From contig JAQYAY010000024.1 in NCBI GenBank assembly GCA_029338735.1, positions 1-64,000 on the forward strand: a stretch of DNA of 64,000 nt, in the 5' to 3' direction. Origin of the DNA: Lachnospiraceae bacterium. GTDB lineage: Bacteria; Bacillota; Clostridia; Lachnospirales; Lachnospiraceae. The number at the start of each line of letters is the position of its first letter. Positions within the stretch are counted from its first letter, which is position 1. Positions 29,501 to 57,167 of the stretch are shown here, piece after piece. The position numbers and the translations under genes were made by a program. Below the pieces are notes generated by a model, which worked only from the letters and a program-made list of their open reading frames with translations, ran no database searches and had not been told where the DNA came from.

Positions 29501-29577
29501 AATTCTGAGTTCTGAGTTATTAGTTTTAAGTTTTAACTTTGAACTTTGAACTTTGAACTCTGTACTTTTAACTTTCC
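29501..29577. repeat. Degenerate heptanucleotide tandem array between fhs and ftsK
   Basis: Reads in 7-mers: ATTCTGA GTTCTGA GTTATTA GTTTTAA GTTTTAA CTTTGAA CTTTGAA CTTTGAA CTCTGTA CTTTTAA. Confidence 0.85.
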
Positions 29578-40590: not shown

Positions 40591-41802
40591 TTATCCTAAT
40601 TCTTTCTCGAGATTTTCTCTGATTGCAAGGATGAAGTCCCTGCTATTGAGCTTTGTCGGGTTCGGAAGGGTCGTGATGAGGGCCAGGTCTCCTGTCATCC
40701 TGCCTGACTCGATCGTGTCGATCGTTGCCTTTTCAAGCGCATCTGCGAACCTCACGAGATCTGGCAGATCATCGAGCTGTCCTCTCTTCCTGAGGGCTCC
40801 TGTCCAGGCAAAAATAGTTGCTACAGAGTTCGTGGATGTCTCCTCACCCTTCAGGTACTTGTAGTAATGTCTCTGTACTGTACCATGAGCTGCCTCATAC
40901 TCGTAATATCCCTGTGGGGAGACGAGTACTGATGTCATCATGGCCAGTGAACCGAAGGCTGATGAGAGCATATCACTCATGACATCTCCATCATAGTTCT
41001 TGCAGGCCCATATGAATCCGCCGTGGCTCTTCATGACACGTGCTACTGCGTCATCTATGAGTGTATAGAAATATGTGATTCCTGCTGCTTCGAACTTGTC
41101 CTTGTATTCCTTATCATAGAGTTCCTGGAATACGTCCTTGAAGGTGTGATCATATTTCTTTGAGATCGTATCCTTGGTTGCAAACCACAGATCCTGCTTT
41201 TTCTCTAATGCAAAAGTAAAGCAGCTTCTTGCAAAGCTCTCGATTGAGGACAGCAGATTATGCTGTCCCTGTACTACTCCTGGTCCGTCGAATTCATGGA
41301 CAAGGGCTCTCTCTTCTGTGCCATCCGGCTTCGTATATACGAGTTCTACCTTACCTGGTCCCGGGATCTTCATCTCTGTTGCACGGTATACGTCTCCGTA
41401 TGCGTGACGGGCGATCGTGATTGGCTTCTCCCAGGTCTTGACATTCGGCTCAATACCCTTTACGACTATCGGTGCCCTGAATACTGTTCCGTCGAGGATT
41501 GCACGGATTGTGCCGTTAGGGCTCTTGTACATCTTCTTCAGATTGTACTCTTTGACTCTGGCGGCATTCGGGGTGATCGTTGCGCACTTTACTGCGACGC
41601 CGTATTTCTTCGTTGCGTTACTTGCATCTATTGTGACCTGATCATCGGTCTCATCTCTGTGCTTCAGGCCGAGGTCGTAGTACTCGGTCTTTAAATCTAT
41701 GAATGGTGTAAGGAGCTCGTCCTTGATCATCTTCCAGAGGATACGGGTCATTTCGTCGCCGTCCATTTCGACAAGCGGCGTCTTCATTGTAATCTTTGAC
41801 AT
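40591..41802 (-). CDS. icd: NADP-dependent isocitrate dehydrogenase
   Basis: [64 protein letters not shown]. Confidence 0.96.
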
Positions 41803-41824
41803 TTTTATCTCCTATTTGTCGGTC

Positions 41825-41954
41825 AGAGAGCAAACGCAGGTTTTTCGAGACACGCTCTCGCTCTGTTCTCAACGCAGCGGACGCATAAGGCCGCATAGAA
41901 CGCGGCCTAAGCGCCGGCGTTTCGAAAGGTCTCTCAAAACCTCTTTTGCTCTCT
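41825..41954. repeat. Nested imperfect inverted-repeat element (structured RNA or MITE-like)
   Basis: Outer arms AGAGAGCAAA/TTTGCTCTCT; bulged AACGC..CGG.CGC / GCG.CCG.GCGTT; inner AGGCCGC-ATAGAAC-GCGGCCT. Confidence 0.75.
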
Positions 41955-41973
41955 TCCCTCTAGAATCAGTTAA

Positions 41974-42226
41974 TTCATTACAAAGCTTAGAATTCAGACT
42001 TATAACCTATTACTTCATTACAAAGCTTAGAATTCAGACTTATAAACTATTACTTCATTACGAAGCTTAGAATTCAGACTTATAAACTATTACTTCATTA
42101 CGAAGCTTAGAATTCAGACTTTTAAACTATTACTTCATTACGAAGCTTAGAATTCAGACTTATAAACTATTACTTCATTACGAAGCTTAGAATTCAGACT
42201 TATAAACTATTACTTCATTACGAAGT
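41974..42226. repeat. 40-bp tandem direct repeat, six full copies plus a partial copy in the leuS 3' end
   Basis: TTCATTACRAAGCTTAGAATTCAGACTTATAAACTATTAC starting at 41974, 42014, 42054, 42094, 42134, 42174, partial 42214. Confidence 0.97.
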
Positions 42227-44624
42227 TAATGATACGGCCTGGGACGAAGATTTCCTTGACTACGTTGCCTGTCAGCTTATCCGCGATTTCCTTACGAGCT
42301 GCTGCGAGGGCGTCGTCCTTCCTGACGTCCTTTGGAAGAGAGATGACTGCCTTGGTCTTGCCATTGATCTGAACTGGCATCTGGATATCATCCTCTTCTG
42401 TGAGCTTCTCATCCCACTCTGGCCATCTCTCCTCGAAGACTGAGGTCGTATAGCCGAGATGCTCATGCATCTCCTCTGCGAGATGTGGTGCAAACGGTGC
42501 GAGAAGGACTGTGAGGGTCTCAAGTGTCTTCTTATCGACTCCGCCCTTCTTCGCGATCTCGGTCAGAGTATTGGTATACTCCATGAAACCCGAAACCACT
42601 GTATTCAGTGAAAATGCCTCAAGACGGGTCGTGATGGTCTTTATCATCTGATTCCTGATACGGATGAGTTCCTTTGTCTCAGGCGCGTTTTTCCCGCTTT
42701 CCTCTGTAACGAGCTTATAGACCTTCTTTAAGAATCTATTGATTCCCTCGATGCCTCTGTCATCCCAGGCGCTGTCAAGCTCTGGCGGTCCTATGAAAAG
42801 CTCATACATACGAAGTGAATCGCAGCCATAATCTCTTATCATGTCATCAGGAGAAACGACATTTCCAAGGGACTTACTCATCTTGATTCCCTTCGGTCCA
42901 AGGATCATTCCCTGGTTGAAAAGCTTCTTGAACGGCTCGTCAAAATCTATCACACCTATATCATGCAGGAACTTGGTCCAGAATCTGGCATAGAGCAGGT
43001 GAAGCACCGCATGCTCCACTCCTCCGATATACATATCTACCGGAAGATACTTGTCTGCCTTCTCACGGCTCACGAGCTCCTTGTCATTATGCACATCCAC
43101 ATATCTGAGGAAATACCATGATGACCCTGCCCACTGTGGCATTGTATTGGTCTCTCTCTTGGCCGGGCCTCCGCAGCACGGGCAGGTAGTATTGACCCAG
43201 TCCGTCATTGATGCAAGCGGTGATTCGCCCGTATCCGTAGGCTGATATGACTTCACATCCGGAAGAACCACAGGAAGCTGATCCTCCGGTACCGGAACCG
43301 CTCCGCACTTCGGGCAGTGGATGATAGGGATAGGCTCGCCCCAATATCTCTGACGCGAGAATACCCAGTCACGGAGCTTGTAGCTGACTGTCCGCCTGCC
43401 GAGTCCCATCTTCTCTATCATATCAGGCGCTTCTGCCTTGAGCTTCTCAGAGTCCATTCCGTTCCAGTCACCGGAATTGATCATCTTGCCCTTTGCCTCT
43501 ACATACGGCTCATCCATATCTGTCATATCAGAGCCATCCGGGCTTATTACCGGAATGATCTTTAGTCCGAACTTCTTTGCGAAATCCCAGTCTCTCTGAT
43601 CATGGGCTGGAACACACATGATGGCTCCTGTTCCGTGATCCGCAAGCACATAGTCGGAGATCCAGATAGGAACCTCCGCTCCGTTCAGAGGGTCAATCGC
43701 GTATGAACCTGTCCATACTCCGGTCTTCTCCTTATTCTGTACCCTGTCAACATTTGACTTGTTGGCTGCTGCCTTGCAGTATGCCTCTACCTCTTCTCTC
43801 CTGTCATCGGTGGTAAGATACTTTACCATCTCATGCTCTGGAGAGAGCACCATGAAGGTAGCTCCGTAAAGGGTATCTGGTCTTGTGGTAAAGACTGTAA
43901 TAGCCTTATCCGGGTCATCCTTGAGCGGGAAATTGACCTCTGCGCCGTATGATCTTCCGATCCAGTCCGTCTGCATCTTCTTGACCTTCTCAGGCCAGTC
44001 GAGATCCTTGAGCCCGTCTAATAGTCTGTCTGCATATGCTGTGATCTTAAGCATCCACTGACGGAGGTTCTTCTTGGTTACAGGGGTGCCGCATCTCTCG
44101 CAGATACCGCCCTCCGCCTCCTCATTCGCCAGCACTGCCTTGCAGTGAGGACACCAGTTAAGCGGCATCTGTTTCTCATAAGCCAGCCCGTGCTTGAACA
44201 TTTGGACAAAGATCCACTGTGTCCACTTGTAGTATGACGGATCTGTGGTATTGATCTCCATGTCCCAGTCATAGACTGCACCGATCTGCTGCACCTGACG
44301 CTTGATATTCGCTATATTCTTCGCGGTGGAAATCGACGGATGCTGACCGGTCTTTATGGCATAGTTCTCTGCCGGGAGTCCGAATGCATCCCAGCCCATC
44401 GGGTGGATCACATAGTATCCGTGCATCAGCTTATATCTGCTCCAGACATCGGAGATCACGTATCCTCTCCAGTGTCCTACATGCAGTCCTGCGCCTGACG
44501 GATATGGAAACATATCCAGACAGTAATACTTTGGTTTCTTATCGTCCTTTGGATTTACCGGTTTCTCTTCCCAGATCTTGCGCCATTTATCTTCTACGGC
44601 GCGATGGTTGTAAATAGTATCCAT
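42210..44624 (-). CDS. leuS: Leucyl-tRNA synthetase
   Basis: LDMFPYPSGAGLHVGHWRGY (HIGH region); KGIKMSKSLGNVVSPDDMI (KMSKS). Confidence 0.97.
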   Translation of the reverse strand: MDTIYNHRAVEDKWRKIWEEKPVNPKDDKKPKYYCLDMFPYPSGAGLHVGHWRGYVISDVWSRYKLMHGYYVIHPMGWDAFGLPAENYAIKTGQHPSISTAKNIANIKRQVQQIGAVYDWDMEINTTDPSYYKWTQWIFVQMFKHGLAYEKQMPLNWCPHCKAVLANEEAEGGICERCGTPVTKKNLRQWMLKITAYADRLLDGLKDLDWPEKVKKMQTDWIGRSYGAEVNFPLKDDPDKAITVFTTRPDTLYGATFMVLSPEHEMVKYLTTDDRREEVEAYCKAAANKSNVDRVQNKEKTGVWTGSYAIDPLNGAEVPIWISDYVLADHGTGAIMCVPAHDQRDWDFAKKFGLKIIPVISPDGSDMTDMDEPYVEAKGKMINSGDWNGMDSEKLKAEAPDMIEKMGLGRRTVSYKLRDWVFSRQRYWGEPIPIIHCPKCGAVPVPEDQLPVVLPDVKSYQPTDTGESPLASMTDWVNTTCPCCGGPAKRETNTMPQWAGSSWYFLRYVDVHNDKELVSREKADKYLPVDMYIGGVEHAVLHLLYARFWTKFLHDIGVIDFDEPFKKLFNQGMILGPKGIKMSKSLGNVVSPDDMIRDYGCDSLRMYELFIGPPELDSAWDDRGIEGINRFLKKVYKLVTEESGKNAPETKELIRIRNQMIKTITTRLEAFSLNTVVSGFMEYTNTLTEIAKKGGVDKKTLETLTVLLAPFAPHLAEEMHEHLGYTTSVFEERWPEWDEKLTEEDDIQMPVQINGKTKAVISLPKDVRKDDALAAARKEIADKLTGNVVKEIFVPGRIINFVMK

Positions 44625-44656
44625 TTCTTCCTCCATCGAAAAATACAATTATTCAA

Positions 44657-54659: not shown

Positions 54660-54728
54660 TTAGGGGTTAGGGGTTAGGGGATAGGGTTATAAACCAGGCA
54701 ATCCCTATCCCCTAAGTCCTATTCCCTA
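54660..54728. repeat. TTAGGGG/CCCTATT-type heptanucleotide array with a 13-bp inverted repeat
   Basis: 3x TTAGGGG (54660-54680); arms TTAGGGGATAGGG (54674-54686)/CCCTATCCCCTAA (54703-54715). Confidence 0.9.
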
Positions 54729-57086: not shown

Positions 57087-57167
57087 TAGGGGGTTAGGGG
57101 TTAGGGGTCAGGATTCAGGGACCAGGCAGTCCCTATCCCCTATTCCCTATTCCCTATATCCTATTTA
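57087..57167. repeat. Second heptanucleotide array, related to 54660-54728
   Basis: GGGGTTA-type 7-mers, shared core ACCAGGCARTCCCTATCCCCT, then CCCTATT-type 7-mers to the gpmI stop. Confidence 0.9.

Follow-up and report, generated by a model that had tools for sequence, protein, structure and literature searches.

Upstream of icd, in the 64,000-nt stretch of Lachnospiraceae DNA analysed here (the window), lies an elaborate, multi-armed palindrome. An initial annotation had offered two readings of it, a structured regulatory RNA or a member of a dispersed repeat family. The question is whether the element belongs to icd, or icd merely happens to lie next to one copy of something else.

Results

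Position and fold of the element upstream of icd

The element was located by covariance-model search at 41958-41821 on the minus strand, which is the icd strand, inside the leuS-icd gap. Model R1, built from an alignment of 40 copies from the element's own and related genomes, scored it at 127.9 bits (E 9e-46; R1 E-values are rough). RNA folding of 41803-41970 gave -71.6 kcal/mol for the minus strand (z -5.65; none of 200 shuffles was as good) and -60.6 kcal/mol for the plus strand (z -4.87). The icd-sense strand is thus the better folder. Its fold rises from a long basal stem through a tandem G.A step to a three-way junction, from which a 2-bp GNRA mini-hairpin and a bulged, GC-rich arm branch off (Table 1).

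The palindromic stems named in the initial annotation are all present in the sequence, and the fold z-score of -5.65 supports them. The apparent side arm GCTCTCGCTCTG is also real; on the minus strand it corresponds to the mini-hairpin GC-GAGA-GC plus flank. The placement before icd on the icd-sense strand held as well, but the spacing had to be corrected, since the element ends 18 nt from the icd ATG and not about 25 nt.

Table 1. Features of the leuS-icd region in the window.
Feature	Position	Strand	Basis
Whole structured repeat	41821..41958	-	cmsearch R1 and fold z -5.65; closing pair 41958/41821
P1 basal stem, 5' arm AGAGAGCAAAAGAGGTTTT	41936..41954	-	fold; 17/17 modelled P1 pairs covary across copies
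P1 basal stem, 3' arm AAAACCTGCGTTTGCTCTCT	41825..41844	-	fold; P1 covariation; G.U 104 vs A.C 25
GA of tandem G.A step, P1/P2 boundary	41934..41935, partner GA 41845-41846	-	sequence and alignment A1
P2, GAGAC / GTCTC (GUCUC in RNA)	41929..41933 / 41847-41851	-	pair counts
P3, runs on into P4 arm	41863..41928 (41928-41917 with 41875-41863)	-	fold, pair counts
P4, conserved arm CGG.../...CCG with variable GC-rich apex GGCCGC/GCGGCC	41878..41916	-	pair counts
CT bulge between P3 and P4	41876-41877	-	CU/UU in 108/110 copies
GNRA mini-hairpin GC-GAGA-GC	41854..41861	-	GNRA loop in 108/110 distinct copies
Putative icd Shine-Dalgarno AGGAG, directly after the element	41809..41813	-	sequence, inference
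icd, isocitrate/isopropylmalate dehydrogenase family	40591..41802	-	Pfam PF00180
leuS, upstream gene, same strand as icd	42210..44648	-	Pfam tRNA-synt_1 and editing domain
40-bp tandem array, 6.4 copies, outside the repeat family	41970..42225	.	TRF; unit includes leuS 3' end

Copy number and distribution

The window copy was used as a BLASTN query, a check proposed in the initial annotation, and matched 15 further places in its own genome at E <= 0.001. With the covariance model, 16 full copies, one strong partial copy and three weak matches were found in this genome of 1.9 Mb. Of 200 genomes sampled from the same family, Lachnospiraceae, 89 carry copies, many of them at least 16 each. In a sample of the phylum, 5 of 399 genomes had matches, the own genome included, and one of these (G595) lies outside the family. 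Carriers include uncultured rumen Lachnospiraceae, a genome labelled [Clostridium] symbiosum and Brotaphodocola catenula; many of the sampled genomes appear to be MAGs.

Rfam, also suggested at the outset, holds no family that convincingly matches the element or its copies. Over the element in the window Rfam 15 gave no match at the gathering threshold, and at permissive thresholds nothing rose above chance over copies in 13 own and 11 divergent loci. No match to the repeat was obtained in the plasmid and phage records searched, nor in viral contigs searched by the core pattern, and no tRNA-like identity of the element was found. A pattern match in Stenotrophomonas was at chance level (15.5 bits) and was discarded. 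Searches of the main texts of open-licence papers found no description of the repeat in Lachnospiraceae or of its motif string. The repeat is apparently uncatalogued, and is absent from Rfam.

Covariation and strand-specific constraint

In a structure-naive alignment of 40 copies, the RNAalifold consensus had compensatory changes in 25 of 34 pairs. The hand-drawn structure, scored on the same alignment, gave a covariation of 0.487, compared with 0.192 after shuffling and at most 0.156 with slid partners. Among 110 distinct copies aligned by the model, two-sided compensatory changes were seen in 47 of 50 pairs, with a covariation of 0.761 (0.201 shuffled, at most 0.13 slid); this alignment leans towards the model, and the structure-naive results are therefore the check.

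Features that a mere palindrome could do without are conserved too. The mini-hairpin loop is GAGA, GAAA, GGGA, GCGA or GCAA (GNRA) in 108 of the 110 copies, its third base is always a purine, and ten copies close it with U-A in place of C-G. P3 and P4 are separated by a bulge that reads CU or UU, again in 108 of 110. The basal stem is 20-25 bp long and almost free in sequence, and the folded shape is kept while most of the sequence changes.

Mismatches in P1 were counted over the 110 distinct copies. G.U occurs 104 times and A.C 25 times; per copy, G.U exceeds A.C in 58 copies and falls below it in five (related copies are non-independent, so p-values are nominal). Because G.U outnumbers A.C, and each G.U would be an A.C mismatch on the opposite strand, the constraint acts on one strand. 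The selected form is therefore a single strand, RNA or ssDNA, with the polarity of icd in the window copy. The invariable purine in the loop, and a P1 that tolerates G.U but not A.C, modestly favour RNA over ssDNA. The main counter-observation is that the conserved arms contain little G.U, a pattern as compatible with DNA as with RNA; at one such pair UA occurs 55 times, CG 54 times and G.U never.

The initial annotation had held that a lack of both compensatory substitutions and other copies would speak against regulatory RNA and repeat family alike. Compensatory substitutions are pervasive, on the structure-naive alignment and on the 110 copies. Its suggestion of a dispersed repeat family is borne out by about 17 copies in the genome, by compensatory changes throughout the copies and by the strand-specific structural constraint.

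Genomic context of the copies

Both neighbouring genes were called for 83 copies, from simple ORF calls. Sixty-eight of these have co-directional genes on either side (40 sense, 28 antisense), nine lie between convergent and six between divergent genes. Neighbours in the own genome include V-type ATP synthase, nrdD, leuS/icd, era, thrS, hisG, glnS, serS and a SIS-domain protein, probably glmS. Neighbours this varied speak for insertions that are tolerated in the gaps of operons, and against regulation of any one gene.

Aminoacyl-tRNA synthetase genes (leuS, thrS, glnS, serS) adjoin four of the 16 full own copies (L060-L075), an excess above chance expectation that was noticed post hoc. A T-box leader (L013:1717-1919) lies just upstream of the thrS copy, which is placed between the T-box and thrS.

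Polymorphism at individual sites

Insertion sites were compared among related genomes. In G002 and G010, leuS and icd almost abut and the element is absent. The copy upstream of era is common to the own genome and G008, and is absent in G010, G002, G004 and G011. At gyrB-gyrA (genes named by eye from sequence) the own genome is empty, and a full copy is present on one contig of G010. On a second G010 contig, and in G002, a deletion has removed all but part of the 3' arm. These comparisons argue that the repeat is mobile and is dispensable at given sites.

Contigs C8 and C76 of G010 thus differ at the gyrB-gyrA junction, full in one and deleted in the other, within a single assembly. The G010 MAG probably mixes two strains.

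At the icd site, the own genome and G008 have identical flanks, while the elements are 52% identical and 20 pairs are changed on both sides. Other copies shared by the two genomes (era, thrS) are 98-100% identical. The low identity at icd, set against that at era and thrS, suggests that the icd copy was probably replaced as a whole, or converted, as if by exchange of a cassette. The proposal that the element is a regulatory RNA of icd is not supported by these results: copies adjoin dozens of unrelated genes in both orientations, relatives lack it at leuS-icd, and a close relative carries a different subtype there.

Units carrying the repeat

In the own genome, copies resemble one another only up to the ends of the hairpin. 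Larger units were found in other genera. About a dozen of the copies in G202 are enclosed in MITE units of ~275 bp, which have inverted ends around GGGTGTCAAAAGCCC and target duplications of 8 bp; G142 has two copies within a larger inverted-repeat unit, and G146 has copies in tandem units. Where two copies lie close together on opposite strands, as at more than a dozen loci, they diverge, and their 3' ends face outward. Many copies end ...A|G...C|GT(C/A). No clean target duplication was seen at the bare hairpins of the own genus. The inverted ends of the G202 units were used to seek an autonomous relative, and only MITE-sized facing pairs were obtained. A 3.1-kb stretch between two copies in G023, judged by eye, contained no recognisable transposase ORF.

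Discussion

Comparison with known repeats

REP elements, tagged by GTAG/CGTC, are palindromes of 20-40 bp forming a simple stem-loop (PMC3733652). The repeat resembles REP, BIME and REPIN sequences in being a palindrome found outside genes in many dispersed copies, alone or as inverted pairs, that codes for nothing and has a short conserved foot. It differs in being ~140 nt long, with a three-way junction and a GNRA arm, and in showing no association with Y1 (RAYT) transposases (Fisher p 0.57, 200 genomes). A 3' foot reading C|GTC or C|GTA is common among the copies, and C|GTC bears a superficial likeness to the CGTC tag.

Like MITEs, the repeat is short, non-coding, dispersed in many copies and polymorphic in its insertions, and the G202 units have terminal inverted repeats and 8-bp target duplications. 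In the own genus, however, the unit is the hairpin alone, and its terminal stem varies by copy with no conserved terminal inverted repeat. The MITE definition fits in part only. The MITE-like repeats bcr1-bcr3 of Bacillus cereus (PMC3446304) are likewise intergenic, often within operons or UTRs, and the likeness to bcr1 is of kind only.

Among the mobile/repeat sequence candidates (MRSCs) of recent RNA surveys, MRSC-65-2 is described as one long stem with a UYCCGG repeat, found in diverse phyla (PMC11109978). As presented there, it resembles the present repeat in having structured copies with covariation by the dozen in each genome, no consistent orientation towards genes, and the standing of a suspected selfish element whose RNA or DNA form is undecided. 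The repeat described here is branched and nearly confined to one family, unlike MRSC-65-2 as described. It behaves like dispersed palindromes of the REP and MITE type and like MRSCs.

Explanations for the repeat

The element in the window is likely to belong to a family of non-autonomous mobile repeats, dispersed and ~140 nt long, in which selection keeps a specific single-stranded fold. This reading builds on the copy number, the fold with its strand-specific covariation, the intergenic and mostly intra-operonic placement, and the polymorphism by insertion, loss and replacement. A trans-acting factor of the mobilising machinery would recognise the conserved core and thereby limit propagation to copies that fold. 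Copies in operons would enter the mRNA by passive read-through transcription, here between leuS and icd, where the fold may mildly affect processing or stability. Against it stand the rarity of G.U in the conserved arms, the lack of a clean target duplication at the bare hairpins of the own genus, the lack of association with Y1 transposases and the fact that no mobilising enzyme was found.

Alternatively, the hairpin may act at the DNA level, as a ssDNA or cruciform substrate of a transposase or recombinase, with the RNA incidental. Its arms would then stay complementary through the needs of the enzyme and through arm-templated correction (quasi-palindrome repair). This is a possible, though less probable, account. 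Compensatory exchange in the conserved arms almost without G.U intermediates, the divergent orientation of close copy pairs and the clustering of tandem duplications beside copies agree with it, and short GNNA loops are stable in DNA too. Arm correction alone, however, would erase the bulges, mismatches and junction, all of which are conserved; the P1 asymmetry is unexpected from double-stranded repair, and the constant purine at the third loop position is as in RNA GNRA loops. It is unlikely that the hairpin is a passenger in MITEs, moved by transposases acting on enclosing inverted ends and with no role of its structure in movement. The units of G202, G142 and G146 fit such a passenger, but the enclosing ends vary from genus to genus around a common hairpin core, similarity in the own genome goes no further than the hairpin, and a passive interior would not keep a fold with 47 of 50 pairs covarying.

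The conserved junction, GNRA hairpin, strict bulges and free basal stem may also be seen as a new functional RNA (a ribozyme, a guide or an RNA-protein assembly) that drives its own spread via RNA, which we regard as quite unlikely. If true, it would be a bacterial counterpart of SINEs in nearly half of the sampled family genomes, on several unrelated MITE backbones. A cis-acting regulator of icd (riboswitch, leader or attenuator) would account for a highly structured element on the icd-sense strand, 18 nt before the ATG and beside the ribosome-binding site. It is nevertheless very improbable: 16 full copies, some antisense, lie by unrelated genes in the same genome, G002 and G010 lack the element at leuS-icd, the subtype at icd differs between the own genome and G008, and Rfam gives no match. 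No more credible is the idea that a RAYT (Y1) transposase mobilises the element as a palindrome of the REP/BIME type. Dispersed extragenic palindromes in singles and inverted pairs, with the short foot given above, recall such a system, but a branched ~140-nt fold is far from simple hairpins of 20-40 bp (PMC3733652). Furthermore, Y1 transposases, with RAYTs and other Y1 enzymes pooled, occur in 42 of the 89 carrier genomes and in 58 of the 111 genomes that lack the repeat, and 22 of 39 high-copy genomes show none.

The repeat is abundant in a major gut and rumen bacterial family and is missing from Rfam, and its copies are a natural experiment. Hundreds of compensatory changes make the fold known ahead of bench work. 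It can be asked what machinery spreads palindromic repeats without a recognisable transposase, and what effect such folds have on landing between the genes of housekeeping operons.

Tandem duplications near the copies and in the window

Of 158 sides of copies, 22 have a tandem duplication with units of at least 8 bp no more than 120 nt away, compared with about 2 expected from farther flanks, a background that is mostly coding DNA and not a matched intergenic control. The loci include L063, L065, L020, L068, L023, L108, L182 and L188. Hairpin-induced slippage would explain the excess.

At leuS-icd, the rest of the gap is filled by the 40-bp array (97% matches), whose unit holds the leuS stop codon. 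G008 has only ~1.5 units at this site, against 6.4 in the window; the array has therefore expanded recently. The window also has three short arrays of 7-bp units, at 29524-29575, 54660-54686 and 57130-57165 (TTTGAAC, TTAGGGG and TCCCTAT).
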